Below, in pieces: positions 3,013-21,773 of a stretch of DNA of 64,000 nucleotides; within the stretch, counting starts at the first letter, position 1; each line of letters begins with the position of its first letter. Source of the stretch: Chitinispirillaceae bacterium (GTDB lineage Bacteria > Fibrobacterota > Chitinivibrionia > Chitinivibrionales > Chitinispirillaceae); assembly GCA_016929595.1 (NCBI GenBank), contig JAFGIN010000049.1:1-64000 (forward strand), in the 5' to 3' direction. The notes under the pieces are model-generated. The model ran no database searches, was not told where the DNA came from, and saw nothing but the letters and a program-made list of their open reading frames with translations. The position numbers were made by a program, and so were the translations under genes.

Positions 3013-3444
3013 TCACAACGCCGAATTATCAATATACTCTCGAATCCTTGCATTTGACCAGTTTGCGGCCTTTGCAAATACATGTTCATTCAGGATGTAC
3101 TCTGTTACACTATCCAAGTTGGTTGGACAAGTTTCAAGATTGTCATTCTCATTATCATCCAGTTCGTAACTATCTTCTGTCTGAAGGAAAACGGCATCCT
3201 GTTCGTAGGGCTTGAGTTCAGTAACTTTACCATAAACGAATTCCCTGACAGTATCCTCATAGGTTTCCCACAATAATTCCTTTTCAAACTGTACCTGGAC
3301 ACATATTTCATCCCATAAATTTCCCAGGTCAGGCCTTACATCCTTATAATACTGGCAGTAGGAAATTGTTTGTCGAGTAACCCGCTTACACGCATTTTCT
3401 GCAATAATTTCAACTATTCTGGATTCACATCTTTCTCTACTCAT
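3013..3444 (-). CDS. Small protein of unknown function, last gene of the helicase operon
   Basis: The 143-residue protein is not a family I recognise. Its N-terminal half is mixed-charge and probably helical (SRERCESRIVEIIAENACKR). The middle is acidic (residues about 95-115) and the C-terminus reads NARIREYID. ATG 3444 has AGGT eight bases upstream. A TTG at 3468 would overlap the helicase stop by 4 bp and is the alternative start. The gene follows the SF1 helicase directly and must be co-transcribed with it, so it is likely an accessory subunit of the same system. No catalytic motif is visible. Confidence 0.65.
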   Translation of the reverse strand: MSRERCESRIVEIIAENACKRVTRQTISYCQYYKDVRPDLGNLWDEICVQVQFEKELLWETYEDTVREFVYGKVTELKPYEQDAVFLQTEDSYELDDNENDNLETCPTNLDSVTEYILNEHVFAKAANWSNARIREYIDNSAL

Positions 3445-3464
3445 TTTTTTTACCTGCTTTATAA

Positions 3465-5558
3465 TCAAATCCCCAAAAGCTCAGACTTTCTCCCCACTCC
3501 TGTAATCGTTACATTCTCTCTTGCACGGGTAACGGCGACATAAACCATCGATTTCTCATTCCTCAGATAACTTTCCTGTTCTTCTTTTGCATAATCATCA
3601 AAATCAAATGGCTTTGCCGGGACTGTTCTATCGTTTGTGTCAACTATGAAAATGTGTTTAAATTCCAAACCTTTAATTCTGTGGAAGGTTAAAAGATTTA
3701 CCACATTATCCGCAGAGCTTCTTTCTGATCCATTATCATCATAGGGAATTTTGAGCTTGTGAAGCTCGTTACGGAATTCCTTCAAGCCATCTTTTTTTCG
3801 TGCACAAATGGCTATATCAGAATGCTGGCATCCCTGCTCAAAAAGATGTGTCAAACTCTCGAAAACAGAACTGACTTCCTCTTCTTTTGTTTTAAAAACA
3901 GTATAAGTTGGTTTGATGCCATGGTACAGGGAGATATACCCAGCTTTCTGTTCCTCTTCTCCATTGTAGTTATCATATTTGCAATCAGCAATGACAGAAA
4001 CTGCCAGTTTTTTAATTTCTTCGGTCGTTCTATAATTTATTCGTAAGCGGTGACTTCTTTTTCCCCGAATATTGATACCCGCTTGTGAAAAGTTGATACA
4101 TTTACTGTAAATAGATTGTAATGGGTCACCAACAAGAAACAGATCATTATTTTTTTCAGGTACAAGGCATCGGATTAGGCGCAATTCGACGTTTGAAAAG
4201 TCCTGTAGCTCATCAATTATACAATAAGTAAAAGGTGTGCTCTTAATCCCCTTGCAATGGGTCGAAAGAATATTATAGAGTTCATCTTTATAGTACAGAT
4301 TATTCCCGGAACGTTTTTTGTCGAACTTCTGGAAGAATTCCCAGATCTCCTGTCGTTGCCTTCTGGTAATTGGTTTACCACGCCCTTTTCTTGATGTTCT
4401 CACATACTCATCAAAGTTCTGGATTCCATTATAGAGAATAACTTGTTTATATTCCGCTTCAAGAAACTCCGGAGAAAAGCTTGTAAGTACTTCTGCGACT
4501 ATCTCCTCCCAGAACTCGGAGGCATTTTTAACTGAATCAATTTCGAAAACTTTGAAACCATTCGGTAGTAATGAATGCTCTTTTACAAGTGAATATACAA
4601 GCTTATCAATATTTATGAGGGTGATGTGGCTTGTATCGATATTGAGGCCTTTGATCAGCCCCGTTAAATTTTCTGTAAGTGCCTTTGTGAATGTTGAAAA
4701 GAGAATCTCTTCACCAGCTTGTCTGATCTCACTGAGGTATTTCAGACGATGGAGTGCTGCAACAGTTTTACCGGTACCTGCACCGCCGCTCACTTTCACG
4801 GAACCTTTAAAATCTCCACTGACAAGTTTCCTTTGTGACGGGTGCAAGTAGTATTTCCATTTACTCAGGCTTCCCGACAGTGCTTCATTAAAGAGTGAAT
4901 CATCAGTCAGTTCAATAAAAGACCGCTGGTTATTAAAACTTTTGACCTGTTTATCCGGATCTTCATCACCGACACGACCTTCACTTATCTCAGTTATAAG
5001 CTCATCGATCTTTGCGCCCTCAAGGAGATAAAAGAGGTTCTCAAATACATCTGCAGGAATAAATTTTTCTAATTTTTCCAGATCAACTAAAGTATCTATG
5101 TTCCTGATCGATGGCAGAAGTACTTCCGGTACTCCTATTTTTATAAGTTTTTCAGAATCAATTCGACCAAAGAATGTTTTCTGAACAACTTCAACAGGAA
5201 TAGCAGGTGTCTCGTCGAGTTTAGCTTCAGGAGCGGTGAACATCTGTACCGATTGTGTAACCTCATTCCATTGGAACACTTTATTCGCAGCCCAGGCATA
5301 TGCCTCATCATGGTGATCTACCCATAAGAGATAGAATACATCACCTGCCTCTGGCGATTTAATAATGGCACGATATGTTTGATCAACACGTGCAGATCGT
5401 AGCGACTTATCTTTGTTGTTCAAAAGAGGTTCGAGATGTATCCCGGCAGCTTTTGAATCTTCTCTGAATTTCTTTTGGAAGTCAACAACCTTTTTCTGTA
5501 TTGTTTTAGGCAGGTTGATAAAAGAATCCCAGAATTTATCGTATACCAGTAGTTTCAT
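3465..5558 (-). CDS. SF1 (UvrD/Rep-like) helicase with RelE/ParE-like N-terminal domain
   Basis: The protein has 697 residues. Residues 1-95 have the layout of a RelE/ParE-type fold, ending in a WVDHHDEAYAWA stretch, as seen at the front of some UvrD-like helicases. The SF1A helicase core follows: Walker A GGAGTGKT (about 257-264), DELQD (Walker B), GDPLQSIYS (motif III), NYRT (motif IV), HRIKGLEF (motif V) and VAVTRAR (motif VI). The motifs look intact, so an active 3'-5' DNA translocase is expected. The gene overlaps the giant helicase by 23 bp, so the two proteins are translationally coupled and probably act together. Whether the N-terminal domain cleaves RNA, binds a partner or is a structural relic cannot be read from sequence. 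Confidence 0.85.
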   Translation of the reverse strand: MKLLVYDKFWDSFINLPKTIQKKVVDFQKKFREDSKAAGIHLEPLLNNKDKSLRSARVDQTYRAIIKSPEAGDVFYLLWVDHHDEAYAWAANKVFQWNEVTQSVQMFTAPEAKLDETPAIPVEVVQKTFFGRIDSEKLIKIGVPEVLLPSIRNIDTLVDLEKLEKFIPADVFENLFYLLEGAKIDELITEISEGRVGDEDPDKQVKSFNNQRSFIELTDDSLFNEALSGSLSKWKYYLHPSQRKLVSGDFKGSVKVSGGAGTGKTVAALHRLKYLSEIRQAGEEILFSTFTKALTENLTGLIKGLNIDTSHITLINIDKLVYSLVKEHSLLPNGFKVFEIDSVKNASEFWEEIVAEVLTSFSPEFLEAEYKQVILYNGIQNFDEYVRTSRKGRGKPITRRQRQEIWEFFQKFDKKRSGNNLYYKDELYNILSTHCKGIKSTPFTYCIIDELQDFSNVELRLIRCLVPEKNNDLFLVGDPLQSIYSKCINFSQAGINIRGKRSHRLRINYRTTEEIKKLAVSVIADCKYDNYNGEEEQKAGYISLYHGIKPTYTVFKTKEEEVSSVFESLTHLFEQGCQHSDIAICARKKDGLKEFRNELHKLKIPYDDNGSERSSADNVVNLLTFHRIKGLEFKHIFIVDTNDRTVPAKPFDFDDYAKEEQESYLRNEKSMVYVAVTRARENVTITGVGRKSELLGI

Positions 5559-8500
5559 ATTCCGTTTCCCTTAATTCATCTATACTAACTAATGTAAAAC
5601 TATTTTTCTCAAAAATTTCTTTATCAGCTTCAGAGTATGGATTGTATACTTGTTTTGTTGATGTCATAATAAGTTCTGCCTCTGCTAACACATTACCATT
5701 TTCATCGAGAAGCGAATTGAGTTGTATTTCATCCTCTTCTGATTGCAGGAGCCCAGCATTGTATAGTTTCCATAGTGCATCATGCAACACCGATGGAAAT
5801 GCAGCAATAATGGCATCAATGTTTATTGTTACATCACAGGGTGTTTTTTGTTCGGTTGATTCATAATCAAAGAATTGAATCAGATTGAAAATTGCCCAGA
5901 ACTGGTTCCAGCTTTTTTTATCGATCTCATCGGTACTATTAACTGTGTATCCTCCAAAGAGAGTACTATTTTTTATATTTACCGCAAATTTAGCCGCAAA
6001 CAGGGGATTCTGTTCTACTAACGAAACAGGTACCCAACCATCTAATGTTCTATTATTGATACAGAAAGTATCCATTACACTATTCTGTAATGCATCCTGT
6101 ACCTTATCAGGAGCAAATGATGGTGTAAAAAGTTTCTTCTGAAAGAAAGCACAATAGAGTGAAATATCATTCTGGATCTGCTTGATAGTATCTATAGATT
6201 TAAGTGCTTCAAGCAATCGTATAAAGTTATTCTCAAATTTTTTAGGAGCAGTTGTATCTCTTTTTACTGCTTGCAAAAGTGTAGCTCTGGTTTCCAGAAA
6301 CCCTTTTTCTGCATGAAGTCGATCGTGGAGAAAATCGTTGCGTTTAGCCTTATCATCTTCACTAAGGTATCCATCAAAATGTTCAATATCATCCCATGTC
6401 AATGTCCATGTATAATGATTTCCAGAATTAACAACAGCTTTTCTTTTCTCTATATCTTTTAAAAAGCTGTTATGCTCTTTTGATGCGTGGAACTGATACC
6501 CATCGAGATATATGGCAATTCTGTGTAATGAACTCTTATCTTCGACTACTAACCCGTTTATTTCACAATGTGTACATATAATCAAAAAGTCTGTACGGGT
6601 ATGAAATTCAACTCCATCTGCACGACCAAGATTCACTTGTGGTCTGATATGAAAGTGCAGCTTTTTATAATGATCCTCATATGATAATTTGTAGGAGATG
6701 GTACCGTCATCATTAGTTTCTGAAATGCGCCAGTTTTCATTTTTGTTTGCCAATTTTTTGAGGCTTCGGATAAACCGCTCTTCCAGTTCTGATTCTTCAA
6801 TATTACCACTGTTTGTCAGATTTCCTAAACCACTGGGATGTGTCTCCCAATCCTCGATTCGCTTAACAATCTCTTCAAACCTTTTTTCTGCCTTGGCCCT
6901 GCTTAATTCTGCCTGGTGATACTGATTCGAATATGAATAGATGCAATGGTAGCAACCATCTTTATCCATATACTGACATGAACAGCTCTTAATCTCCTTA
7001 TAAGAAGCTAGCAGAAGTTTACTGAATTCATTAACATTAAATATTTTTTCGAGATAACCGGTACCACCGGGGATTGAATCATATAGTACGAGATATTTAT
7101 CGAATTTTGTGGTGATGTGATTATACTCACTATATACGGAAATTCTTATATGTTCCGGGTTTCCTTTGAAATACTTTTTCAAACCCAATTCGATACCAGC
7201 CTGAAACATTTTGATTTCAGCATCACTGTTTAGTTCCTGAACAGGGAGTAGAATCTTCAATGCTTCCGTCTGCATCTGCCGAAAGAAGAAAACCTCTTCA
7301 AAAACATCATCCGAAACGCCATTGTAATTTCGGTCTTTATATTTACAATAGCCATAGTGAAACTTGTAATCATTTCCATTTACTTTTTGACGAACATGCG
7401 AGGAGCTTTTTCCGCACAACCTGCAGGTAATAAAGCCATGAGCGGGGGCTTCCGTTTCATTAATTTTTACTTTTCTCGGATCAACAACATCTTTTCTACC
7501 GAGATTAGTGTCGGTAATAGTTACCTCTTTAAAGAACTCAATCCCGAATGGAATATCTTTCATTGCATAAGCACCACGGGAGTTATTCTCTTTGAAGTTG
7601 AAATGCTGAAGAACATTGTAGCGAATTTTTTCTCGTTCATCACTACTGTCATTTATTGATGCATCTGACTGATTGTTGAATGATTTTACTGAAAGTAATT
7701 TCGCAAAGGTGTGTACATTTGACGATGATCCCCACGATTCATGGTTACATTTGGGGCAATACCCTTTGGGTGCTGTCTCATCCATTTCGATATGATCACA
7801 GTTTGAACAGAAGCGCTTTTTATGAAAACTGTTTCTGTCTGACCAATCAAAGGTATTGATACCTGTTACCAGGAACTTAAACCCCTGTGAATAGAAAAAA
7901 TTATCCGGGGCAAACTCCTTAAGTGCCTGGCTTGCAGCCCTCACAATTTCAAAATCTTTGTTCAGTGGTACTTTGTTACTTGAAGCAGCCTGGTTACCGA
8001 GTACTTTTGCAGTAAGTGTAACGCCGGTTTCGGGAAAGGCATAGTTTGGAAGAGCTCCCGCATTAGTCAGATGCTCCAGAGTGTTCCGCTTCTTGATCGA
8101 CATGATAATGCCACCAAGATTCTTTTTTTCGTTCTCAAGTTCAATCCGTTCAGGGTCTTTTTTACCTAATTTAAGTTCTTTAATCCGGAGTTCTATTTCT
8201 TTACGGATTTCCTGAATTTTATAAATATCATCTTTTAAGTTAACAAAGATATTCCTGTTGAACTGGTAGAAGTTATCACTGTCAAGCTCATACCGGAGAT
8301 GATCAAAGACTTTAGCATCCACATCATGAAGATACCCGTTTTTGAATGAATTGAACAGTTTGTCTTCATTAACTTTAATGTAATGCAGAATCTTATTTAC
8401 AAAGAAATCAGTAGACAGAAGATCTGAAGTTTCAATACGCAGTGCATTGATATTGTGTGGAATATGGTTATTTTTAGGATCGAGACGGGTCCAGGAATCG

Positions 8501-11500
8501 ATACAGAAAGCAAAAAAATGACGTTTCAGGATCTCCTTAGCCTCAATATAACAGCCAGGTGTATTGACCTCTCCCACCATCATTTCCAGTGGTTCTGTAT
8601 AGTAATAAAGATCGTGATCCTTACTTTGTGCAAAGTTTACAACAAGTGCAGAACCAGACGCGCGCCCTGCACGTCCTATACGCTGAAGAAAATTTGATGG
8701 CTGTGGTGGAATAGAATTGTTGATCGCCGTATTGAGCGTACCAATATCGATTCCCATTTCAAGAGTACTTGTTGCTACAAGTGCATTTCTGGAATTGAAA
8801 TTCGGTCTGGTCTTAAAATCTTCTTCAAGAAGTTCCCGTGGCTTACGTGGAATCAGGCCCGTATGATCTGCCGCGTAGATCCTTGGAGAACGGTTCCGGT
8901 TATAGACAAGTTGATAGTAATTATTCTTTTCAACAACATCATCTATTTTGTATGCACCCTGACACCGGTGTACAAGGCACTTACCACCTGTTAAATCATG
9001 TTCAGTCTCGCCAACAGTTAACAAGTGTCCACATTCTGAACATGAATATGCTTTTATGTTATGAGTTACAAAGAGCTTTTGCGGGCTAATAGCAACATTC
9101 GTTTTTTCTTCGGTATTCGCTTTATCTACAATGCCGATCTTTACCATAGCCTCGATAAGTTGTGTGTAAAAATCATTTACCATGTCTACATAATTTGATG
9201 CAAGCGGAAAACATTTTTTATAGTATTGATGAAACCAGTTTGATGTTTTTGCATGGGTACTGTCCAGGAGTCCCCTGGATTCGGGATAACTGGTAAGAAG
9301 TTTAGGTAAACGAGTACGCGATCCAAATTTTCTGTTGAGAAAATGGCGCGAATCCTTCATCCAGTTCAAGTCCCACAACTTGAGGTCGTGTTCTCGGAAC
9401 TTTTCCAAATAACAGTGGCTTACCGCTCCACGCACCCGAACACGGTGCAGCACCAGTTCTATAAAACGTAAAAACGAGTCTTTATCAATTGTACCTGATC
9501 TATCATTTTCACGTAACCACGGCTCCATAGAGTTCCATACAGCAAGGAGATCTTCTAAAACGAAAAATGTTGCTGATGACAAGGTCTTCTCTAACGTTCT
9601 ACCAATCTGTGCGTCATAACCAAATTCGGAAAAACATTCCCAGGTGATACGATCGTCAAATTCCTTTACGAAGTGTAGCTCATAAAACCCACTGTCGTTT
9701 TTATAATCCTGCGGGGCTGATTTACCAAGGTAATCAGTGGGATAGAAGCGATAGTAAAAAGCATCGAGAGGATTCTTCCCTGTCTCATCGGAATGCTGTT
9801 TCCAATAGGTAATAAACTCACCGGCAAGTTCCTGCAACGATATAGCCCTGTCCAGCTTGTTGATAACTCGCTGCAGTGATGAACGAAAGGTGAAACGGTA
9901 ATTTCGCGCTTCAATAAATCCTGCCTGATGTGCAGCATCCTGCACAGAATTAGTGAATGCCAATACTTTTCGATTCTGCTCATTCTGTATATCAAGATCT
10001 GTTGCCAATACCTGGCTGACCGTAATACTGCTCAGTGTGGCGACACGGGTACCAATGATTGAAACACCGTTTCGTGTATTACACTCCGGGCAGACATGGT
10101 CATTATAACCACTGCTGGTAAGTTTTCTGAATGCGGTGATGTCTGTTCTTTTATCTTCGGTGTCACTATGCAAGATAAGTGTTACATTATCAATAAATTT
10201 GTGAAAAGTATCATTTGCCTCATAACCGCAATCGATCGCATCCTTCTGTGAAAACCATGATGTTCTATTTGCAAAGTAGATGTGTTTGTGATTCGAGAAA
10301 AACTTTTCGTAGATATCATTGATCTCTTTTTCGAATCGTTCTTTATTGTCATGTTTGATACCTAACCATCCTGATGCACCACATTCACGGCAGAACCATG
10401 GTGGCAACGCCAGACGGTCATCCTGATCGATATCAGCCTTCCAGGTAAAGTGCGGCTGCTCACTGATTGTTCTGAGCACACCACTAAGTTCCCGTATCCA
10501 GAGCTGTGTCTGTATGTAAAGAAACGGTGTTTTACGTCCATTCTGTTGATCAACTACGTAAGCTTCAGATATCAAAGAAAAGAGCGATAGAACAATACTC
10601 TCTTTAGGGTTGAATTGAAACTGCTCATTCCACTGAGGGACATCTCTGAAGTTTTTGTTGCGACTCGAAAGATTCTTTACGATAGTCTCCAGTGTATGGA
10701 CACCTTTATCCTTGTTCACCACGGCAACAAGATCCTTAACAAGCTTCAGTTTTATCAGATCCTGGGCAAGGGTAGACCTGTCCATCTGCCAGAACCCAAT
10801 CTGCCGTTCGATATACTTATCATAACCTTCACCAGTCAGCGGTTTTACATCTTTAAGAACATTGGTTCGTGGTGTAAACGTTTCCAGTAAATCATCATCC
10901 GCAAAGAATTCTTCAACCGTGATTCTTTTTTCAGCAACAATGCAGTCCGGTTGAATTGTTTCCCCAAATATCTTCGATGCATAATCAGAAAGCTGCAGTG
11001 AAGCATCCTCACCGGTACCGATTGTTGCAGATGTTCCAACAGGGCAAAGGTGATTTTCCGGAATAGACAGTTTCAGCTTCAGACGACGGATCAGATTGGC
11101 TACATCAGTTCCCTGAGCACCATCATAGGTGTGCAACTCATCAAGAACAAGGAATTGTAAGAGTTCAGGATCCTGGTAATTCCCCAGCCAGAGATCGTTG
11201 TAGTTTCCCTTCATCAATCCATAGTCAAGCATTTTAAAATTGGTCAGAAGAATATCCGGCGGGGATGACAAAATTGATTCCCGGTTTTCAATGATATGAT
11301 CCGGACCCATTGTCTTAGGGTATTTCGCAGCATCCTTTCCCTCACCGATAAACAGACCTGCAGTAATCCTGCCCCTCAGCCGCTGATCATCATTGATATA
11401 CCCAGCAAGTCGTTTTGCCTGATCCGTCGCAAGCGCATTCATTGGATAGAGAATAATAACCTTGATCCCCTGGCGATGCAGATTGCGATGACAATAGTCA

Positions 11501-11850
11501 AGAATCGGAAACAGAAATGATTCAGTTTTTCCTGAACCGGTCCCAGTAGTGATAATAGTTGGTTCAGCTTTTTTGCCAACGGTACTGAGACGATGCCACG
11601 ATTTTACCTGATGATCATAGGGGAGCCATGATGGCTTAATTGTTAATGGAATATTCTGAAGGTCATTTTCGTTTGCTTTAACAAATGGTAGTTTCAGCGA
11701 TAAATAGGGACCTTTGAACATTCCTTCTGATGGATGAGTGACAAAATCGTAAAACGCTTTGTGCACCTCTTTATCCTGAAAAGTGAAAGTCGCTTTAAGA
11801 TATGCGAGAATCGACTCCTTAATTTCAATTGCCTGATTGAGACTTAACAT
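5536..11850 (-). CDS. Giant DEAD-box helicase with DUF1998 and C-terminal nuclease-like domain (DruE or DrmA/DrmB-like)
   Basis: The protein has 2104 residues. The N-terminal helicase lobe carries Walker A TTGTGSGKT (near 100) and DELHTYDG (near 240). A very long insertion separates it from lobe 2, which carries TSTLEMGIDIG (near 1030) and QRIGRAGRASG (near 1056). Several Cys pairs that could form zinc ribbons occur (CRECG near 490, CPECN near 590, CSECG near 940, CSNCD near 1345, CRLCG near 1475). The DUF1998 signature CSCQYMDKDGCYHC lies near 1640. Beyond it (about 1765-1840) RADGVEFHTRTDFL, YLDGYQFH and DIEKRK resemble a Vsr/DUF559-type endonuclease. Druantia DruE and the DISARM DrmA+DrmB pair share the helicase-DUF1998 plan. 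I cannot assign it to one of them without a profile search. It probably translocates on and cuts invading DNA together with the neighbouring proteins. Confidence 0.85.
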   Translation of the reverse strand: MLSLNQAIEIKESILAYLKATFTFQDKEVHKAFYDFVTHPSEGMFKGPYLSLKLPFVKANENDLQNIPLTIKPSWLPYDHQVKSWHRLSTVGKKAEPTIITTGTGSGKTESFLFPILDYCHRNLHRQGIKVIILYPMNALATDQAKRLAGYINDDQRLRGRITAGLFIGEGKDAAKYPKTMGPDHIIENRESILSSPPDILLTNFKMLDYGLMKGNYNDLWLGNYQDPELLQFLVLDELHTYDGAQGTDVANLIRRLKLKLSIPENHLCPVGTSATIGTGEDASLQLSDYASKIFGETIQPDCIVAEKRITVEEFFADDDLLETFTPRTNVLKDVKPLTGEGYDKYIERQIGFWQMDRSTLAQDLIKLKLVKDLVAVVNKDKGVHTLETIVKNLSSRNKNFRDVPQWNEQFQFNPKESIVLSLFSLISEAYVVDQQNGRKTPFLYIQTQLWIRELSGVLRTISEQPHFTWKADIDQDDRLALPPWFCRECGASGWLGIKHDNKERFEKEINDIYEKFFSNHKHIYFANRTSWFSQKDAIDCGYEANDTFHKFIDNVTLILHSDTEDKRTDITAFRKLTSSGYNDHVCPECNTRNGVSIIGTRVATLSSITVSQVLATDLDIQNEQNRKVLAFTNSVQDAAHQAGFIEARNYRFTFRSSLQRVINKLDRAISLQELAGEFITYWKQHSDETGKNPLDAFYYRFYPTDYLGKSAPQDYKNDSGFYELHFVKEFDDRITWECFSEFGYDAQIGRTLEKTLSSATFFVLEDLLAVWNSMEPWLRENDRSGTIDKDSFLRFIELVLHRVRVRGAVSHCYLEKFREHDLKLWDLNWMKDSRHFLNRKFGSRTRLPKLLTSYPESRGLLDSTHAKTSNWFHQYYKKCFPLASNYVDMVNDFYTQLIEAMVKIGIVDKANTEEKTNVAISPQKLFVTHNIKAYSCSECGHLLTVGETEHDLTGGKCLVHRCQGAYKIDDVVEKNNYYQLVYNRNRSPRIYAADHTGLIPRKPRELLEEDFKTRPNFNSRNALVATSTLEMGIDIGTLNTAINNSIPPQPSNFLQRIGRAGRASGSALVVNFAQSKDHDLYYYTEPLEMMVGEVNTPGCYIEAKEILKRHFFAFCIDSWTRLDPKNNHIPHNINALRIETSDLLSTDFFVNKILHYIKVNEDKLFNSFKNGYLHDVDAKVFDHLRYELDSDNFYQFNRNIFVNLKDDIYKIQEIRKEIELRIKELKLGKKDPERIELENEKKNLGGIIMSIKKRNTLEHLTNAGALPNYAFPETGVTLTAKVLGNQAASSNKVPLNKDFEIVRAASQALKEFAPDNFFYSQGFKFLVTGINTFDWSDRNSFHKKRFCSNCDHIEMDETAPKGYCPKCNHESWGSSSNVHTFAKLLSVKSFNNQSDASINDSSDEREKIRYNVLQHFNFKENNSRGAYAMKDIPFGIEFFKEVTITDTNLGRKDVVDPRKVKINETEAPAHGFITCRLCGKSSSHVRQKVNGNDYKFHYGYCKYKDRNYNGVSDDVFEEVFFFRQMQTEALKILLPVQELNSDAEIKMFQAGIELGLKKYFKGNPEHIRISVYSEYNHITTKFDKYLVLYDSIPGGTGYLEKIFNVNEFSKLLLASYKEIKSCSCQYMDKDGCYHCIYSYSNQYHQAELSRAKAEKRFEEIVKRIEDWETHPSGLGNLTNSGNIEESELEERFIRSLKKLANKNENWRISETNDDGTISYKLSYEDHYKKLHFHIRPQVNLGRADGVEFHTRTDFLIICTHCEINGLVVEDKSSLHRIAIYLDGYQFHASKEHNSFLKDIEKRKAVVNSGNHYTWTLTWDDIEHFDGYLSEDDKAKRNDFLHDRLHAEKGFLETRATLLQAVKRDTTAPKKFENNFIRLLEALKSIDTIKQIQNDISLYCAFFQKKLFTPSFAPDKVQDALQNSVMDTFCINNRTLDGWVPVSLVEQNPLFAAKFAVNIKNSTLFGGYTVNSTDEIDKKSWNQFWAIFNLIQFFDYESTEQKTPCDVTINIDAIIAAFPSVLHDALWKLYNAGLLQSEEDEIQLNSLLDENGNVLAEAELIMTSTKQVYNPYSEADKEIFEKNSFTLVSIDELRETEYETTGIR

Positions 11851-11866
11851 GTTTTAATTTTCCAGT

Positions 11867-13375
11867 TTATTTTCTGGAGGTTACTTCCCAGTAACCACCT
11901 TTATCGGGTCCAATTCGTTTAAGTAGTCCATTTTTTCGCAAATTACGGATATTCCAGTCAACAGTGTGGTATGAAATAGATAACTTTTCTGAAATGCTTT
12001 TTACAGTGATTTCCCTGTCATCCTGAATAAGCCGAAGAATTTTCTCCGTAGTTTTCTCCGTAGTTTTCTCCGTAGTTTTCTCCGTAGTTACACCGCCAGT
12101 TTCAATGCCAACTACGTTTTTTGGTGTTTCACTGTCTTTTTCCCCGACGTTTTCACCGACACCATTTCTTGTTATATCTTCAAATTGTTTGATTGTCTCT
12201 AGTTTAAAACTCAGTATAACGGAATCGAATTCTATTATGTACTCTGGCCTTGTGTCATTATAAGCCCTCCAGTTGTCATCGATTTTATCGAGGCCAAATC
12301 CGGCGTTTTCTGCGAGTTTAACCATCCGGAAAAGTTTTGCAAGTACCGGGTTTCTGGGTAATGAAATATCTTTACTTTTCAGTTCACTGAATGGTTTGGG
12401 CAAACCACCCGGGTTATAATACTCTATACGATCAGTAAAAATGCGTATGCGGGAGCGGGATGGCGAAAAATAATCGGCATGCATGAGCATGTTAACCAGT
12501 GCTTCACGTATGCTGACAAGTCCGGGAGAGAGCTCCTCTCCAAACCCTTCAGCAGTCAAAGTAAAATGTACATCTACTTTTTGTTTTAATCGGGCAAAAC
12601 ACTCAAAGTAGTATTCCCAGAGATTTTCCTGTTCATCGAGTCTAAACGTGTAACGCTGTCTTGCATCTGTATATGATGTACCCGGAATTTCAAGCAGATC
12701 GATTCGGAAATCCGGGAAATGTTTTTCGATTGCATCCCGTTTACCAAGCATGAGAAGACCCGCAAAGGTACACTGATCACCATCCATGATACGCATCTTC
12801 TGTAAAAATTCTGACTCATCATACCGGTTGTAACTGGCATTGGGGCTGAATCGAGACATGTAATCGCGGTAGCGTCGCAGTGATGTGTCATTCAGGCTGT
12901 TCCGGCTGGTGCCCGGCGCTGTTTTTGTTGTTCTGGTGCCAAACGCCCGGTCGCGCAGCATACTGTCAATCTCTTCAGATGTCGCGCGTTGGTCCCCACT
13001 GCCCCTGCGGATAAATGTATTCGCCTGTGTGTTGAAATAAACAGGTTTATTGGGGTGTACAGGGATGTAAAATGCAATAACCGATTTTTCATTAAATGTG
13101 AAATGTTCCTGCTTTGTATCAATAAAGACATTAAACTTTTCACTTCGCAGGGTATTTAAAAAGTCCTGTGAAAGTTTTTCGGCATTGCCAACCCCTGAAA
13201 TCTCGTAATTCTTTTTATTTTCAGTAACACCTAGTACCAGCCATCCTCCGCTGGTATTGGAAAACGCTGATACTGTTTCCCATACGGACTTAGGAAGTTC
13301 ACTCTGAGCAGCTTTTACCTCGAAATCTTCCCATTCGAGGTTTGTAAGTTTTTGTATAAGTTCTTCTTTATTCAT
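11867..13375 (-). CDS. AlbA/Schlafen-type ATP-binding protein with C-terminal HTH (COG2865-like)
   Basis: The protein has 502 residues. An AlbA_2 (Schlafen-like) domain fills the first 130 (DFEVKAAQ, then SGGWLVLGV). A GHKL/HATPase-4-type region follows at about 285-365 (REALVNMLMHADY, NPGGLP, GFGLDKI). A low-complexity linker repeats KTTE four times, and the C-terminus is a winged helix (about 440-500, ISEKLSISYHTVDWNIRNL). Such proteins usually act as DNA-binding regulators. In defence islands they often sit beside methylases and helicases as sensors or regulators. The gene lies 16 bp upstream of the giant helicase, with which it forms an operon. It has no clear Shine-Dalgarno before ATG 13375. 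A REP-like cluster separates it from the methyltransferase gene, so it may have its own promoter. Confidence 0.85.
   Translation of the reverse strand: MNKEELIQKLTNLEWEDFEVKAAQSELPKSVWETVSAFSNTSGGWLVLGVTENKKNYEISGVGNAEKLSQDFLNTLRSEKFNVFIDTKQEHFTFNEKSVIAFYIPVHPNKPVYFNTQANTFIRRGSGDQRATSEEIDSMLRDRAFGTRTTKTAPGTSRNSLNDTSLRRYRDYMSRFSPNASYNRYDESEFLQKMRIMDGDQCTFAGLLMLGKRDAIEKHFPDFRIDLLEIPGTSYTDARQRYTFRLDEQENLWEYYFECFARLKQKVDVHFTLTAEGFGEELSPGLVSIREALVNMLMHADYFSPSRSRIRIFTDRIEYYNPGGLPKPFSELKSKDISLPRNPVLAKLFRMVKLAENAGFGLDKIDDNWRAYNDTRPEYIIEFDSVILSFKLETIKQFEDITRNGVGENVGEKDSETPKNVVGIETGGVTTEKTTEKTTEKTTEKILRLIQDDREITVKSISEKLSISYHTVDWNIRNLRKNGLLKRIGPDKGGYWEVTSRK
12040..12087 (-). repeat. Four perfect 12-bp tandem units in the AlbA-family gene
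   Basis: TTTTCTCCGTAG (plus-strand reading) occurs four times head to tail without a mismatch, encoding four KTTE units in the linker before the HTH domain. The unit is a multiple of three, so copy-number changes alter linker length without breaking the frame. Confidence 0.9.
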
Positions 13376-13695
13376 AATATGCGTATTCTTTAAATATGAT
13401 ATTTTTGTTAATAATTGTGATATTATTTATCCCGCCCTTACAGGGCTTGAAAACCGTTGTAACCATTTCGTTAACCCGGCAACCCAGGCCTTCGCATTCG
13501 CTACTGCCTGGGCTATTAAATCACGCCCTTTCAGGGCTAATATTCAATGGGTGTCATCCCATTTTCTAAGCTCTGAAGGAGCGGTATACAATAGCCCGGG
13601 CTGAAGGCCCGGGTTATTGTACGCAAATTAATTTTTTAGCCCTGAAGGGGCGTGATAATTGCCAATTGACATACCACACTCTCTCATAACTAATA
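13376..13695. repeat. REP-like hairpin cluster inside the defence operon
   Basis: At least five short GC-rich palindromic elements lie in an otherwise AT-rich gap. They are CGCCCTTACAGGGCT (13433-13447), a CCCAGGC/GCCTGGG hairpin (13483-13512), CACGCCCTTTCAGGGCTA (13522-13539), a 14-bp-arm hairpin at 13587-13621, and an inverted copy of the third element (13637-13657, AGCCCTGAAGGGGCG). The inverted outer copies and the central long hairpin resemble REP/REPIN elements mobilised by RAYT (Y1) transposases. They could also act as a transcriptional attenuator or mRNA stabiliser between the two gene blocks. No gene is seen here. Confidence 0.75.
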
Positions 13696-16600
13696 TCACC
13701 CTTCCGACTCCCCTCTCTTTACGGGAGAGTGGCTGGGCGGTGCACTGAGTCCCGATGTGTCGGGATCGAAGTGGGAGAGGTCAAAAACCATCTCAAAATG
13801 CGCCCACGCGGTTTTGTAATCCTCTATACGATCGCATTTGTCGAATGGAGCAGGATAGATCACCTTTTTGCCGTAATATAGTTCACTTTTTGTAATGGTA
13901 TGTTCATACGTTTCTCCGGCTTTCATATCACGGATTTTTTCCCAGTCCGGACGGTCGACTCCTACGCCGTTGAGCCCTTTGGAGCAGGTGAAAACAATAT
14001 TACCTGTTGTATCGTACCAGGTGTCATCTTCGTTCTGCTGAAGAACAGGGAACTGCACATTGTAAATTAGTATAAGCTCTTCGAGAGTTAAACCCAGAGC
14101 CATTGCGGTGATAACATCTATCTCAACAAGGGCTTGTCTGCGCTCATACCAATTACGGAGAGGAGTTACCCACTGCCACTCTTTTGTGAGCGTGTGGAAT
14201 GGTTTGAGACGAGGGTCGTTTTTACTCCAGATATCTTTAATGAATGATTCCTGGAAGTTGCGTTCCCAGAGAGGGGCGTAGTATTTGTTGAGGCAGTTGA
14301 GAAGTAATGTACGGCTTAATAATATTGTTTCGTATTTTTCAGGTATTTCAATAGGAAATTTGCTTACAGTATCGTAGTTTACATGACCCTTTCCAATAGA
14401 TTTTACAAAAAAGTCCATAATAATAGAACACGTTATTGCACAAAGGGCAACTACAGTTTTCTCTTCAGGAAAAGAGATCGTAAAAATTGTATTAATATGT
14501 GAAATTTTTGGAGCAATTATCGCCGGTTGGAGTGATCTCTCAGATGAAGTACCTATCATTTCCTTAAATGATAATCTATACTGGTCTATCCACAGCCTTT
14601 CATCGAAATCCTTTTTAGTGTATTCTAAAAATTTTTCCATTTCTATTGCTGGACTATAGTTCACAGTAGGAACATAATTCTCTTCAATTTCACTTAAGTT
14701 AACGACATCAAAATCAGAATTCAGTAAGCATGGCACTCTTGGACTCTTATAAATCGGTGTACCAACAAAGAAATTGGGCCCACTATATATAATTTCATAA
14801 TTCTCAATATTGCCAGTTATAGTTTTTCTACTTATTATCCCATTATTTACGGCATTTGTTTGATGAAAGCATTCAGTAGTAAAAAATTGTGTGTCTCGAA
14901 CAGCTTTACCACCTCCAATTTTCTTTAGTACTGAAACAATTTCTTTTGAATGCGTACTTATTAATTTTACAGTTTCCCAATTATCATTTCCTTCAAATGT
15001 TTTTGAAATAGTAAGCAGCTCATCTTTTGTAATATTAACGACCCTAGATCTATGGGGATGAATATTCCAAACGAGTTTTGCGGAATTAACATCTTTTACT
15101 TTATACCCCCCAACAAATCCTTCACCATTGTGTACAAAACACCCGTCTATTGTTGCTGGATGAAATAAATTATTTATCGAAATAAAACGAACATTGTTTT
15201 TAATACTCCCGTAAACATGTACTCCGTAAATAGTTTCGTGATGGACTTCAGCAAAAAGGACTAACTCATTCCTAAACTGAAAATGGTAAACCAATCGCTG
15301 GTACACTTCTTTACGTAATAAAAACCCATTCGGATCGTCATAAATACCTTCTGGATGTAGTAACCCTAAAAATCCATTCTGAGAAATCCAATGAAAACCA
15401 TTTTCAATTACACACTTGTATAAATTTGTCTGTTGTCCTTTGAGAAGAGGATAATTCTGAAATGCATTCATAAATGCACTAGATGCTTCTATTTCAATTG
15501 CCTCAGCATAATAGTTTTCTTTTTGTTGGACAATTGATAAAAATTCCTGTTGCATTTTCCTCGCCTGAGGCGCAGACGCTTGTCTTATCTCAAGTTCAGG
15601 AAATACCTCACTCATAACCCCTTTTTCCTCAAAGGTAATCTTCAACCACGGTGGGTTCCCGACTGCAATATCAAACCCACCCTTTTCCCTGAACACTTCT
15701 ACAAATTCCAACTGATAATGAAAGAACCTGTACATCTCTGCATATTTCGTTACCAGTTTCACCCTGTTATTATCAAACAGTGTTGTTTTTCCTACATGGT
15801 CTGCCAGTTCTTTCCCTGCCTGTAAACTCTTCTCTTTTTTTCGATAATTCGCAAGATCCTCAGCGGTTTCGGTGCCTTTCAAGGTATAATCCAGAATATA
15901 GAGGATATCTTCATACCATTCATAGCGACTCGGTAGATCTGCAGCCTTTCGTACATCCCAGAACCACAAACTGCACCAGTAGTCCATAATCATCTTCAGT
16001 TTAAAATAGGGAGCGTTGTGGTTAATACGCTGATTAGCAATCTTTTCTTTCTCTTCGTAGCTGCGAAGATCAAGTTTCCCCTGTTTAGCAAGATCATCTG
16101 CACCAAAAACAATGATACTGCTATTAGTGTCCTCGTTGATTCGTTTCTGATAGATGTAATGTTCTTCTAAAAGTACATCTATCTTTTCAGAGATCTTTTT
16201 CAGTTTAAATACTTCATCGGCATCAATGGGTGCGCAAAACTCCCTTTTCCATTTACTGACCTTTGCCGCTTCAACAGGGTATTCCGATTTAAGTAATGCG
16301 ATCCCTGCAGAGGAGAGCATACCGGTATCCGGCAGCAGAAAGTGATAGATTTCGTTATCTTTACGCTGGATACCGTTTTTACCGAATGAGAGGTGTTTGG
16401 GCTCAGTTGTCCACCACTCTTTTTTATCCTTCGGTTTTTTGGGATCAGATTGTATTGCACTGGTGGTGTACACTTTCAGCCAGGCACCGACAACCGCGTT
16501 ACCAGTACCCAGACGGTATCCGAAAAACGGTGTCTGCATATCCTTGTGTATCACATTCAGCCAGAGTGATAGTTTGCCAAGCTCTACTGCAGTCGGGTTG

Positions 16601-18537
16601 ATATCCACACCATACACATTGCGCAAAGCGATATACGATTTTACTTTCTGCAGCTCTTCCCGGTATTTATCAGGCTCAAGGCGCCAGTTGGTGGCTTTCT
16701 GTTTTTTAAGTTCCTGCTGGCGATACTGCAGGTACGCTTCTGCGAGCTGGTTGATAACTTCATTGTGGAAGGCAGCAGCACCCATCGCTGGTTCGAGAAT
16801 CTTCAGTTTTAAAAGATCCAGAGCTGTTAATTCACCCTTGTCCAGTTTCTCAAGTATCGGTTTGAGGGTATACTTCACGGTGCACTGGGTGAGCACTTCG
16901 GGAGTATAATATGATGCCGATTTCTGGCGATCACGACCACTCAGGCGATAGATGAACGTTCCCTTTGGTATAATCCTCATGATGTCGTTTTCATCATGGT
17001 AGATCTCCTTTATATCGAAATCATCCATGCGTGAACGGGGAACAAGAAAGGAACCTTCATCGCGGGAAACTTTAGCAGAGTTTTCTTTGTCGGTCAGTTT
17101 ACGATGAGCTTCGATATAATCAGTTTCAGCAAAAAAACCACGGAATGCAAGGAGACTTTCGTAGACACTTCCGAGCTGGTTGATCCCGAGATTAGCATAC
17201 GATATACGACCACGAGCTTTGTTTTTCTGCTTTTTTGAAAGTGAGAGCTGACAGATAATCTCCTGCCAGATTACATTTCGCAGTTTCACTTTTGGTAATA
17301 TTTCAATAACCGTATCATTAAATAGTGGTGAATCAAGTTTGCGAATTTTAAAGCTGCGGTTTGCACCATCGTTTTCCCGGTACCCTGTGTTGAGTAACCG
17401 GAAGAGCAGACATAGGGATTCATGAAAGAAGAATCCGTTTTGACTGCTTGCGGTATTAAGTGGAACCTGCTCAAGATCGCGAAGCATTTCAAGAGAACAG
17501 CCCTTGAGGTAAACATCATCCTTTGATGGCAGAATATCCAGATCTTCACGGGATTCTGCATAGAAAAGAAACAACAGGCGATACACATAGGTGAGACATT
17601 CGTTTTTCAGTGTGTCTGCATTAATGCTGTCAACAATATGCCCATGCTCTACAAGATAGAAGACTGCTTCATTGGCAATCTTCTCTACAGCCTGGATTAC
17701 CCCCTCTTTAAGATCCTGCGTCACCTCATACGCTTTTTTATGGCTCTCTTCATCGAGCTGTTCCATCAAGACAATTTCAGACTGCGGAGCAAGCGTCTCT
17801 TTTGCCAGAAGCGTGTAGAAGAGGCTGTAGTAATTCCTGTCAACAGCAGCTTCATCAAAGAGCTCCTCCAGATCAAACTCCAGATAGCTTCCCCGAAACC
17901 ACTTTTCCTGTTCAAGCAGATAGACAATATTACCGGCGCAAAGAAGGATGTACTTTGGTCTACGGTGACCATCGAGCAAAAACAGTTGTGAAACCGCTTT
18001 ATTTATCACCATTGGCGATATTTGAATGCCTTCTGGAACGGTAAACACATTAGCCCACTGTAAACGGTTGTATTTTTGGGCACTTTTTTGAGTTGTATTA
18101 CTTTCTTCACTTTCGTACTGTTGTTCAAAGAGCCCATCCGGTTCCTCATCTCCCACTTTTATGAGAGAGTGCATCTCCATTATCATCAGGTGTGGCTGAA
18201 CATCACGATAAAGCGTATTACGTACCGGCAGTACCCGTTTTTCATCAACCGGGAACAGATCGCCATAGTCAGTATGCTCGCTGTCATATCCCAGCACCTT
18301 AAGTATTTCTTTATTAAAGGCACAGGTCACCGTAACTTTATCTTTGCAACGCAGGTTACCTTCGAAAATAGTTTTTTTGTACCGGAAGTACTTATCCTTA
18401 AGTGATCCGATGCGTTTTTGGATATCTTTAAGTGCTTCGGGGGCGTACCCGGTCTTTGCTATGGCTTCTTTAATGAAATCATCATTGAAGTAGTTTGACG
18501 AAAAATAGTCACCGATATTATGTAGAAATTTGATCAT
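13696..18537 (-). CDS. Large N6-adenine DNA methyltransferase (DrmMI/Eco57I-like)
   Basis: The protein has 1613 residues. The SAM-binding motif I (LEPAMGAAAF) is near 582 and the catalytic motif IV (GNPPW) near 960. The long stretch between them and the C-terminal region are typical of single-chain methylase/specificity proteins such as type IIG enzymes, PglX and DISARM DrmMI. It should methylate adenine at host sites to mark self DNA, with target recognition probably in the C-terminal third. I see no clear nuclease motif in the N-terminal 550 residues, but this was judged by eye. The start lies 9 bp after the SNF2 helicase stop, with AGGT upstream. The last 25 residues are encoded by sequence resembling a common intergenic repeat, so the true C-terminus may have been altered. 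Confidence 0.85.
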   Translation of the reverse strand: MIKFLHNIGDYFSSNYFNDDFIKEAIAKTGYAPEALKDIQKRIGSLKDKYFRYKKTIFEGNLRCKDKVTVTCAFNKEILKVLGYDSEHTDYGDLFPVDEKRVLPVRNTLYRDVQPHLMIMEMHSLIKVGDEEPDGLFEQQYESEESNTTQKSAQKYNRLQWANVFTVPEGIQISPMVINKAVSQLFLLDGHRRPKYILLCAGNIVYLLEQEKWFRGSYLEFDLEELFDEAAVDRNYYSLFYTLLAKETLAPQSEIVLMEQLDEESHKKAYEVTQDLKEGVIQAVEKIANEAVFYLVEHGHIVDSINADTLKNECLTYVYRLLFLFYAESREDLDILPSKDDVYLKGCSLEMLRDLEQVPLNTASSQNGFFFHESLCLLFRLLNTGYRENDGANRSFKIRKLDSPLFNDTVIEILPKVKLRNVIWQEIICQLSLSKKQKNKARGRISYANLGINQLGSVYESLLAFRGFFAETDYIEAHRKLTDKENSAKVSRDEGSFLVPRSRMDDFDIKEIYHDENDIMRIIPKGTFIYRLSGRDRQKSASYYTPEVLTQCTVKYTLKPILEKLDKGELTALDLLKLKILEPAMGAAAFHNEVINQLAEAYLQYRQQELKKQKATNWRLEPDKYREELQKVKSYIALRNVYGVDINPTAVELGKLSLWLNVIHKDMQTPFFGYRLGTGNAVVGAWLKVYTTSAIQSDPKKPKDKKEWWTTEPKHLSFGKNGIQRKDNEIYHFLLPDTGMLSSAGIALLKSEYPVEAAKVSKWKREFCAPIDADEVFKLKKISEKIDVLLEEHYIYQKRINEDTNSSIIVFGADDLAKQGKLDLRSYEEKEKIANQRINHNAPYFKLKMIMDYWCSLWFWDVRKAADLPSRYEWYEDILYILDYTLKGTETAEDLANYRKKEKSLQAGKELADHVGKTTLFDNNRVKLVTKYAEMYRFFHYQLEFVEVFREKGGFDIAVGNPPWLKITFEEKGVMSEVFPELEIRQASAPQARKMQQEFLSIVQQKENYYAEAIEIEASSAFMNAFQNYPLLKGQQTNLYKCVIENGFHWISQNGFLGLLHPEGIYDDPNGFLLRKEVYQRLVYHFQFRNELVLFAEVHHETIYGVHVYGSIKNNVRFISINNLFHPATIDGCFVHNGEGFVGGYKVKDVNSAKLVWNIHPHRSRVVNITKDELLTISKTFEGNDNWETVKLISTHSKEIVSVLKKIGGGKAVRDTQFFTTECFHQTNAVNNGIISRKTITGNIENYEIIYSGPNFFVGTPIYKSPRVPCLLNSDFDVVNLSEIEENYVPTVNYSPAIEMEKFLEYTKKDFDERLWIDQYRLSFKEMIGTSSERSLQPAIIAPKISHINTIFTISFPEEKTVVALCAITCSIIMDFFVKSIGKGHVNYDTVSKFPIEIPEKYETILLSRTLLLNCLNKYYAPLWERNFQESFIKDIWSKNDPRLKPFHTLTKEWQWVTPLRNWYERRQALVEIDVITAMALGLTLEELILIYNVQFPVLQQNEDDTWYDTTGNIVFTCSKGLNGVGVDRPDWEKIRDMKAGETYEHTITKSELYYGKKVIYPAPFDKCDRIEDYKTAWAHFEMVFDLSHFDPDTSGLSAPPSHSPVKRGESEG

Positions 18538-18546
18538 AGGGAAAGG

Positions 18547-21414
18547 TTACCTGTTGTAAAAGACAGAGATAATTTTGAGGTGCGCATCCTGGTTAAGTGA
18601 AGTCAGATCTTTATAATACTGGCTGGAAGTTTCGAGAATGGTTTTTATTTCAAGTAGACGGTCTTCATGCTTCCGTTTAACATAGCCGAACATGGGTTTA
18701 TCGTCAAAATCAATATGTAATTGTTCACTTGCACCTTTTTCCCAGTTTTTGAGTTTCTCCTGGTATACTGCGGCCATTTTCTCCATCTCAAGCTGTTTAA
18801 TCTGCTGTTTCTGATGCATATACATTTGCGAACCAAATTCGATTGCATCCGGTAGCAGTTCTGTTAGTTGTTCAAGATCGGTACTGCTGATCTCCTGTGT
18901 GAGAAGTGGATCTGCAATCTTGTAGGTACTCATGAACTCTTTTAACGTAATCGGCCTTGAGTGCATCCCTCCATCAATACGCATCGGAACGACAAAGAAA
19001 TCTGAAATAACCGATTGACCAACATTATTAGCGACCTGGCCGTGAAGTACAACCCATGCACTGTTTTGAGGTACATCTTTAACCTTAGCAACAAGTGCAA
19101 CATTCTTATCAACACCCGCTTCAAGTTTAGTCATCAGGTATTTGATAACGGGATGAAGATCGTAGAGCATCTGAAACTTTGCCCATTCACCCTTTTTCTT
19201 ACGTGCTTCCTTAATTGCATTTTGCACAGTAGTTTTATCGAGCGATAGACGATAGGGTTCGTTCATCGCAGGTTTTGCCTGTTTAGGGATATCAAACAGT
19301 ACTCTGTTTAGTTCTTTATTGTTGCGTATTTCAAGATAAGTGGTATCAACGAATTCTGCATCATCAGCACCGAGCAAACGATCCGTTTTTAGTTGATCAA
19401 TCAAATCTCTGTAATAATCATATTCCGATTTGTATAATGAATATTCTTCCTGGACAGGTTCAGGATCTATCCGCGCTGGTGTCAGATCAGATTCATCTTC
19501 ACCAAAAAGAAGATCGAGATCAAACTCTTCGAGAAAGTTTTCATTTCCACCAGCAATAGCTTTTTCAACTTCGTCCTCTTCAGCCTGTGAATCATACAGG
19601 TTCATGACAGAACCGGCATCACCAAGGGATTTATAGACTTCTTCCTCTTTTTTCGTAAGATTTTCAAGAATGTGAAGATCTGTTTTCAACCCTTCGAGTT
19701 CTGATAGTGCAATCAAATAATAAATATACGGTGTTTGCGACTGTCCATAACGATCGATACGACCATTGCGTTGTTCAAGGGTAATCAGCGACCAGGGGAT
19801 ATCGTAGTTAAACATCCGGTGGCAATAAAAATGAAGGTTAACTCCCTGCGAACCGGCATCTGAAGTAATCAGGACACGAATGTCCGAATCCTCTTTACCG
19901 AAGTCTTCAATAATCGCCTGCTGTTCAGTATCTAACAATCCGCCATGGAACAATGCTATAGCCTTGTCATCAAGAGCGAAATCTTCCTTGATTCTTTTCT
20001 CAAGGTAAGTAATGGTGTCGATACGTTCTGCAAAGACAACGATGCGCTCATCCTTTTTTCTTCCTGCCCAGCCCAGTTCAAGAAGTGTTTTTCGAAATGC
20101 ATCATATTTTGCATCTTTCTTTTTACCAACGATCAATTCAAGCTTTTCTAACAGATCATTAAGAACTTTGCTATTATTACTTACCCGTTCGGAAACTTCT
20201 GTTTTTTCTTTGATACGTTCAATACGGTTTTTCAGACTGCTGAGAGCAGCTGATGGTGAGGACATATATCCTTTAAAAAGACCGGTCGAAAACAGAAAAT
20301 CTTTACGGCCACTATTTTCAGTGTTTCCAAAAAGATCTGTTGTAACATTTTTAATATGCTGGAGTGCTGTGAATTTTATCTCCTGCTGAAGTTTCAAGAA
20401 TATCTCTTCCTCAGGATAGAGTGCTGTATGCACCGGAACAACCTTTCGATCCTGAAAATTGGATCGCACACCTTCATCAAGGATATCCTTCTTGAATCTC
20501 CGCACATAATAGGGTTCAACATCCGTTTTGCCATATTCACCATTTTTAGGGATCGCCGTTGGCTCTATCATATTGATAAGGTTTGCAAACGATTCTTTTT
20601 TTCCATTGTGCGGAGTTGCAGAGGTCAAAACGAGTGATTCACATCGGGTAGCGAGATCCTGAGCAAGACTACCGCGCTGGCTGGAACTGTTGGCAACGGT
20701 GTGGCATTCATCAATAACAATGATGTCCCAGCGTGTCTTTTCAATATAGTGACGGAATTTCGCATCGTTTTTAAGGGTGTCAATGGAGATAATTGTTTTA
20801 TCATAATATTCAAAAGGGTTCTTGTTCGCCGGGAGTTCCGATTTAATCATGGCAATTCCCTGTGAGTCAAGTCGCACCAGTGGAATCGCAAATCTGCTCC
20901 AGAGTTCCTGTTGAAACTGGGCAAGAACCGATTTAAGCGCCAGAACCATTATCCGTCGCCCTTTTCCTCTTTTTATCATTTCGGAAAGGAAAATCCCAAC
21001 CTCGATCGTCTTTCCAAGACCGACGCCATCCGCAATAAGAATTCGTGGACGCGGTAATTTAAAAGCTTTTAACGTCGGGTCATACTGGTAATCTGCGCAA
21101 TTAAAGGCTGCTTTATTAGCGATAGTTACTTTACTTGAATAATTAGTTGAATGGCGCAACTGGGTTTCGAGAAAAAGACGAGTGCGTCGGTAACCATAAT
21201 CGGTATCTGCGACAAGAGTGGTTTGTGCTGGATCGAGCATTTCAATATCAGCATCAATGCTTGTGTCAAATTTGAAGGTTTTCCCTTTAACTAATTCACT
21301 GATACCTTCTGCATCAATTAGAGATGAACCATCGAAGTTTTCCCTGACATCAGTAACAAGAAAATCCTCTCCTCTGGCTCCGATTCTTGCTCCAGGAACG
21401 AGTGCTTTTTTCAT
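18547..21414 (-). CDS. SNF2-family helicase (DrmD-like)
   Basis: The protein has 955 residues. Walker A is DGVGLGKT (near 130), motif II DECHT (near 236) and motif III SATPHNGKKES. The C-terminal lobe has SDAGSQGVNLHF and the motif VI EQRNGRIDRYGQ (near 555). This is the RapA/DrmD-like branch of SNF2 proteins, which use ATP to move along double-stranded DNA. An acidic linker follows lobe 2 and a helical C-terminus completes the protein. The order SNF2 helicase, adenine methylase, then helicase/DUF1998 gene is that of class 1 DISARM. Its ATG overlaps the stop codon of the upstream regulator gene (ATGA), so both are translated from one message. Confidence 0.88.
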   Translation of the reverse strand: MKKALVPGARIGARGEDFLVTDVRENFDGSSLIDAEGISELVKGKTFKFDTSIDADIEMLDPAQTTLVADTDYGYRRTRLFLETQLRHSTNYSSKVTIANKAAFNCADYQYDPTLKAFKLPRPRILIADGVGLGKTIEVGIFLSEMIKRGKGRRIMVLALKSVLAQFQQELWSRFAIPLVRLDSQGIAMIKSELPANKNPFEYYDKTIISIDTLKNDAKFRHYIEKTRWDIIVIDECHTVANSSSQRGSLAQDLATRCESLVLTSATPHNGKKESFANLINMIEPTAIPKNGEYGKTDVEPYYVRRFKKDILDEGVRSNFQDRKVVPVHTALYPEEEIFLKLQQEIKFTALQHIKNVTTDLFGNTENSGRKDFLFSTGLFKGYMSSPSAALSSLKNRIERIKEKTEVSERVSNNSKVLNDLLEKLELIVGKKKDAKYDAFRKTLLELGWAGRKKDERIVVFAERIDTITYLEKRIKEDFALDDKAIALFHGGLLDTEQQAIIEDFGKEDSDIRVLITSDAGSQGVNLHFYCHRMFNYDIPWSLITLEQRNGRIDRYGQSQTPYIYYLIALSELEGLKTDLHILENLTKKEEEVYKSLGDAGSVMNLYDSQAEEDEVEKAIAGGNENFLEEFDLDLLFGEDESDLTPARIDPEPVQEEYSLYKSEYDYYRDLIDQLKTDRLLGADDAEFVDTTYLEIRNNKELNRVLFDIPKQAKPAMNEPYRLSLDKTTVQNAIKEARKKKGEWAKFQMLYDLHPVIKYLMTKLEAGVDKNVALVAKVKDVPQNSAWVVLHGQVANNVGQSVISDFFVVPMRIDGGMHSRPITLKEFMSTYKIADPLLTQEISSTDLEQLTELLPDAIEFGSQMYMHQKQQIKQLEMEKMAAVYQEKLKNWEKGASEQLHIDFDDKPMFGYVKRKHEDRLLEIKTILETSSQYYKDLTSLNQDAHLKIISVFYNR

Positions 21415-21773
21415 AGGTTATATCCTATATATTGGATAATAGCTGATAATATGATTGATGAAATGTTTGGTTTTACACCAGATGTTGCAGTAATTTGTTT
21501 TTGTGTATCAAGGATCATCTGTTTTAACTGTGAATGCACTCTGATCTCTAACCGATTATTTTTGGGCAAGTCATCATCTGGGATAATTTGTGGAATTTGA
21601 GGGTTATTCTGTCCAAAGCCGACAAATTCTTTAATCGCCCGATTTGCAGTTTCCATAATTGATTCGAGGTTTTTTTCGCAATATGCCTCAAGTGCGTTTT
21701 TAAGATCAGTACTTAAACGAACCTCGATTCTTTGAGTTTTGCTTTTTGATTCAGTCTGTGGTTTGCGTGGCAC
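21411..21773 (-). CDS. Ribbon-helix-helix-type regulator leading the DISARM-like operon
   Basis: The protein has 120 residues. Two similar segments (QRIEVRLSTDLKNALEAYCE near 15-35 and NRLEIRVHSQLKQMILDTQK near 72-92) each look like a beta strand followed by a helix, as in ribbon-helix-helix DNA-binding proteins. It may be a tandem RHH protein that can bind two half-sites as a monomer. The start is GTG 21773 with AGGA seven bases upstream. It is the first gene of the operon and overlaps the SNF2 helicase gene by 4 bp. The gap in front of it holds repeated CGTAC/GTAC sites that are probably its operator. The likely role is autorepression of the defence operon. Confidence 0.75.
   Translation of the reverse strand: MPRKPQTESKSKTQRIEVRLSTDLKNALEAYCEKNLESIMETANRAIKEFVGFGQNNPQIPQIIPDDDLPKNNRLEIRVHSQLKQMILDTQKQITATSGVKPNISSIILSAIIQYIGYNL

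Follow-up and report, generated by a model that had tools for sequence, protein, structure and literature searches.

A Probable ARMADA Type II Anti-Phage Operon with a Schlafen-Like Gene between armB and armC in a Chitinispirillaceae Bacterium

Organization of the Locus

The locus lies in a window of 64,000 nucleotides, which is the whole stretch of DNA that was analysed. The minus strand carries seven ORFs at the positions given by the sequence-only reading; the ORF list and codon use bear them out, with coding-like codon use in the frames of these ORFs and not in the other frames. Domains were assigned by Pfam and PADLOC (2023) profile searches of ORFs spanning 452–25433. The features are listed below, with gene names following the assignment argued in the later sections.

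21411–21773, minus strand: RHH-like small protein, 120 aa (ORF), sharing 4 nt with the start of armA
18547–21414, minus strand: armA, BrxHII/RapA-like SNF2 helicase, 955 aa
13696–18537, minus strand: armB, PglX-like N6-adenine methyltransferase, 1613 aa
13410–13700, no strand: palindromic-repeat spacer between armB and the Schlafen gene, with several repeats of the GCCCTNNAGGGC type
11867–13375, minus strand: protein with Schlafen (AlbA_2), GHKL-type HATPase and winged HTH domains (Pfam), 502 aa, cargo in the armB/armC slot
5536–11850, minus strand: armC, YprA-family SF2 helicase and putative nuclease, 2104 aa
6940–7197, minus strand: MZB/DUF1998 zinc-binding domain of ArmC (domain match)
6388–6792, minus strand: Vsr-like putative nuclease segment of ArmC
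3465–5558, minus strand: armD, RelE-like domain fused to a UvrD/GajB-like SF1 helicase, 697 aa
5214–5558, minus strand: RelE-like domain of ArmD (AlphaFold2 model and Foldseek)
3013–3468, minus strand: 151-aa small accessory protein with coding-like codon use, sharing 4 nt with the end of armD

The gaps along the operon are −4, +9, +320, +16, −23 and −4 nt. At the sole loose junction, the methylase is separated from the AlbA gene by a spacer of 320 bp that bears repeats; all other neighbours overlap or lie at most 16 nt apart. The spacer may hold the Schlafen gene's own promoter. It was also checked as a mobile element; only partial copies were found, at one other site in the genome, and no claim of mobility is made.

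The small genes at the two ends of the locus were considered as core components and rejected, being essentially without conserved relatives; neither has recognisable relatives in other ARMADA loci. The 120-aa protein has no Pfam or PADLOC match and is regarded as a putative RHH protein from its residues. Its one distant homologue among 168 genomes of the phylum (in G018) is not located upstream of an ARMADA system or of a co-directional defence gene. The gene is a possible local regulator outside the ARMADA core, and the suggestion that a single regulator governs the whole gene set is not supported, since the RHH-like gene is not conserved. The 151-aa protein has no homologue in the same 168 genomes, nor in Pfam, PADLOC or the PDB.

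Further features were noticed elsewhere in the window. Directly upstream of the ARMADA genes and on the same strand (21965–25187), a gene for pVip, a prokaryotic viperin (265 bits, CxxxCxxC motif), is followed by one for a 787-aa ankyrin-repeat protein. On the other side, 275 bp past the 151-aa gene, a 761-aa P-loop protein (452–2737) shows weak STAND/AAA matches and an integrase-Arm-like N-terminus. A 1524-aa ORF at 33799–38373 joins an entire RND pump (ACR_tran) to an outer-membrane efflux domain (OEP), an unusual combination of pump and channel in a single chain.

Core Proteins

ArmA contains the Pfam domains SNF2-rel_dom and Helicase_C, is recognised by the DrmD/BrxHII models of PADLOC and matches RapA structures with an E-value of 2e-34. 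It is 36% identical to E. coli ArmA, with K135 and D235 kept. ArmB (40% identity to E. coli ArmB; G586 and N961 kept) is matched by the Eco57I family of Pfam and by PADLOC model PDLC03614 at 1635 bits, and features an NPPW motif at 961–964.

ArmC combines DEAD, Helicase_C and MZB domains in a single protein matched by the DruE/DrmA models of PADLOC. Its identity to E. coli ArmC is 32%, and K108 and D237 are kept. With regard to the zinc modules and the BrxA-like insertion that go with ArmC in ARMADA Type II, many cysteine pairs are invariant. The sequence-only reading had described a methylase–SNF2 pair as in class 1 DISARM and a DruE-like giant helicase, and these domain assignments were confirmed by Pfam and PADLOC. 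The C-terminal segment of ArmC is Vsr-like and a putative nuclease, as judged from the motifs RxDF ... IYLDGxQFH ... D..KR ... TW. The residues E, Q, D, D-G-H, D, R and D are invariant across sets of 14 and 22 relatives, and a weak match to the Pfam family MTES_1575 was obtained for two of the 22. A fold search with the whole 455-aa C-terminus returned nothing significant, and a profile search of the PDB with the C-terminal region gave no match; Tdp2-like matches of the C-terminus were weak (E about 0.3) and were set aside.

ArmD is assigned by the UvrD family of Pfam and by the GajB models of PADLOC. It is 35% identical to E. coli ArmD, and K264 and D449 are kept. The first 115 residues model as a RelE/YoeB fold: the AlphaFold2 model (pLDDT 85.5) was matched by Foldseek to YoeB, RelE and YafQ with E-values of 2.7e-5 to 1e-3, which bears out the earlier proposal of a RelE-like domain on the SF1 helicase.

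Identity of the System

ARMADA has been described as a system of a BrxHII-like helicase, a PglX-like methylase and a YprA-like helicase (Bell et al., bioRxiv preprint, September 2025; PMC12458937). Type II adds to this core a GajB-like helicase with a fused RelE-like domain, and is represented by E. coli NCTC 12900 and ATCC 8739 (PMC12458937). Protection by E. coli ARMADA II is broad, direct and non-abortive, and all four genes are required (PMC12458937). The proteins of the locus were compared with ECs_5261–5264 of E. coli O157 Sakai, in which the residues and their numbering are exactly those mutated in PMC12458937. In this alignment, all eight mutated residues are kept in the locus proteins.

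The locus also follows the armA-armB-armC-armD order of E. coli O157, apart from a single additional gene at armB/armC. The sequence-only reading had proposed a search for the same gene order in other genomes, and the four genes were indeed found together in order across phyla, including on cyanobacterial, alphaproteobacterial and actinobacterial (Actinomycetota) plasmids. In a tree of 23 proteins, the locus ArmC is placed in the E. coli ARMADA II clade with 100/100 support, separate from four helicases of ARMADA I and from that of E. coli Druantia III, the one Druantia type in the tree. The PADLOC 2023 search of the locus ORFs had no ARMADA-named model among its matches, and the core was split over the DrmD, REase_MTase_IIG, DruE and GajB models.

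Because the ArmC tree, the gene order and the catalytic residues all agree, the locus is assigned to ARMADA Type II. It is most probably (a probability of roughly 0.88) an anti-phage operon that is a divergent member of this named system and carries second-layer cargo in its slot. The earlier claim that the set corresponds to no named system does not stand, as these four genes in this order define ARMADA Type II (PMC12458937). The notion of the gene set as one system holds for the four core genes and fails for the AlbA, RHH-like and small-protein genes, which are not core.

Several deviating loci were encountered among the relatives. A Cylindrospermopsis ARMADA II locus (L079) has C-D followed by A-B, and hence the order is not fully strict. 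In a Flavobacteriaceae ARMADA II locus (L023), ArmB and ArmC are broken into many frames, either in a decayed copy or by assembly errors. Two loci of G518 (L049 and L050) have ArmC and an ArmD-like frame, but neither armA nor armB occurs within 20 kb upstream.

Two other identities were weighed against ARMADA Type II. A new DISARM/Druantia hybrid, as the locus had been labelled, would fit the PADLOC 2023 calls, which are DrmD for ArmA (316 bits) and DruE for ArmC (312 bits). As in class 1 DISARM, an SNF2 helicase is paired with a PglX-like methylase and a YprA-type helicase is present; however, the helicase and the DUF1998 part are in one 2104-aa ORF in place of a separate drmA and drmB pair, and a RelE–UvrD helicase is added. 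No DrmC-type phospholipase-D nuclease was found by Pfam or PADLOC among the tested ORFs of 452–25433, in agreement with the earlier remark that such a gene is absent. With Druantia Type III, the locus shares the giant YprA/DUF1998 helicase, for which DruE gives the best PADLOC models, but it has a methylase and an SNF2 helicase, its ArmC falls in another clade, and neither DruH nor DruABCD partners were among the best PADLOC matches of the locus ORFs. The matches to DISARM and Druantia models, such as DrmD and DruE, concern common modules only, and the tree and the gene content, in which the entire four-gene set fits ARMADA II, rule out the hybrid label, leaving it a very small probability.

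The second identity, a stand-alone Type IIG restriction-methylase beside unrelated helicases, draws on the PADLOC label of ArmB as REase_MTase_IIG at 1635 bits. It is hardly credible, given that the four genes are linked in order across phyla and that in E. coli none of the relatives functions without the others (PMC12458937); this conserved linkage rules it out. BREX PglZ and BrxC gave no matches in the tested ORFs of the island. The locus resembles ARMADA II of E. coli in gene content and order, domain plan, all eight catalytic residues compared and ArmC clade. It differs in its 32–40% identity, in having a Schlafen gene at armB/armC, in the RHH-like gene upstream and the 151-aa gene downstream, and in its host lineage.

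The armB/armC Slot and its Cargo

The 502-aa cargo protein is matched by the Pfam families SLFN_AlbA_2 (1.5e-18), HATPase_c_4 and HTH_24, and by the structure of Schlafen 8. In its AlbA_2 active site, E14, E19 and K21 are kept, and E52 stands in place of the usual D. The genome (6.6 Mb) has three AlbA_2 genes in total. A relative with 61.6% identity is located upstream of armC in G026. The protein is predicted to be a Schlafen-like RNA-cutting protein.

In the ArmD tree, the Bacteroidota relatives and the phylum of the locus form one lineage with 100/100 support. Extra genes just upstream of armC were found in 13 of the 14 loci of this Bacteroidota-related (FCB) lineage vs. 3 of 17 elsewhere, where G026 and G687 were counted from the armC side only, armB not being seen on their stretches. 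The enrichment has a Fisher p of 4e-5 before allowing for shared ancestry, and in shuffles of labels on the ArmD tree, 2 of 500 needed as few changes as observed. The sole empty armB/armC junction in the lineage is that of G821. In E. coli, the junction is tight in 514 of 518 genomes. The inserts differ in their modules and are nearly always co-directional with the operon:

Source locus: Schlafen–HATPase–wHTH protein
G026: Schlafen protein (61.6%) and two GmrSD-like genes
Gramella: McrB–McrC and helicases
Algoriphagus and G315: AbiEii with partners
G780, G673 and G1203: TmtA (Tiamat-like) proteins
G894 and G656: homologues of the TmtA proteins of G780, G673 and G1203
G687: MkoA-like helicase and PIN-LOTUS protein
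G1144: Schlafen-like protein
G622: small genes

The PADLOC matches of the cargo include TmtA (up to 1263 bits), MkoA and PDC-M62AB; we take the PADLOC names TmtA and MkoA to denote Tiamat and Mokosh, respectively. At the same junction, between the methylase and the YprA helicase, a Nostoc ARMADA I-like locus (L069) has a gene for an AAA ATPase together with one of the radical SAM family.

The preprint on ARMADA reports a strict gene order and makes no mention of such a slot, nor of Tiamat, AbiE or GmrSD (PMC12458937). An earlier paper of the same group placed McrBC near a "DISARM-like" cassette (PMC11090510); this resembles Gramella, where McrBC adjoins the ARMADA-like set, but a slot with interchangeable modules was not described there. 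The lineage-specific cargo slot at armB/armC thus appears to have no description in the literature searched. In BREX, the insertion of BrxU or Schlafen genes (PMC8565348, PMC12839542) likewise puts another defence gene inside the operon of a methylation-based system. BrxU has been tested as a defence layer that is nested in BREX and complements it (PMC8565348). The Schlafen–HATPase–wHTH architecture, the same as that of the cargo described here, is reported beside BREX from no fewer than 1017 taxa, with the interpretation of a backup RNase (PMC12839542). The locus differs from BREX in having no PglZ/BrxC core and in its insertion site, the ARMADA armB/armC junction.

By analogy with these cases, the cargo of the locus is most likely a second defence layer. 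The wider proposal, that armB/armC in the FCB lineage is a dedicated exchangeable cargo site which wires a second defence layer into operon expression as a built-in backup effector, has an even chance of being correct. It competes with ordinary turnover of the defence island without functional meaning, as might be expected from the general clustering of defence genes, from the inserts in three loci outside the lineage and from the Fic genes (two loci) and the AlbA gene (one locus) found at armA/armB. Such turnover is the less likely explanation: within one lineage, 13 of the 14 loci have different, nearly always co-directional modules at a single junction, and in most of them armA/armB and armC/armD are tight.

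The function of the cargo itself can be read in two ways. The AlbA domain named in the sequence-only reading is present, but the "regulator" assigned with it is one option for this Schlafen–HATPase–wHTH protein, a Schlafen-type effector being the other. As a transcription regulator of armC–armD, it would make use of the winged HTH and the GHKL-type ATPase domain, its gene lies 16 bp upstream of armC, and the usual catalytic D is replaced by E. The AlbA_2 domain nevertheless retains two acidic residues and the K, the same slot in relatives is mostly occupied by effector or restriction genes, and the homologous architecture near BREX is classed as an RNase effector (PMC12839542). A purely regulatory role is a real but tentative option, and the effector reading is followed below.

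Proposed Mechanism and Implications

The following mode of action is inferred and goes further than what the gene content, the clade, the residues and the fold show. ArmB would mark host DNA by N6-adenine methylation, ArmA, ArmC and ArmD would find and unwind unmarked phage DNA, and the Vsr-like end of ArmC would cut the unwound, unmarked phage DNA. The cargo, presumably co-expressed with armC–armD, would provide a second layer once the main system fails, acting by modification-dependent restriction or by RNA cleavage and growth arrest.

The assignment corrects the hybrid call to a named system and extends ARMADA II to a lineage with a layout unlike that of the reference. The operon slot can be mined, any gene at armB/armC in this lineage being a candidate new defence module. 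There is also a testable case that BREX and ARMADA, methylation-based systems so unlike each other, share one kind of Schlafen accessory.
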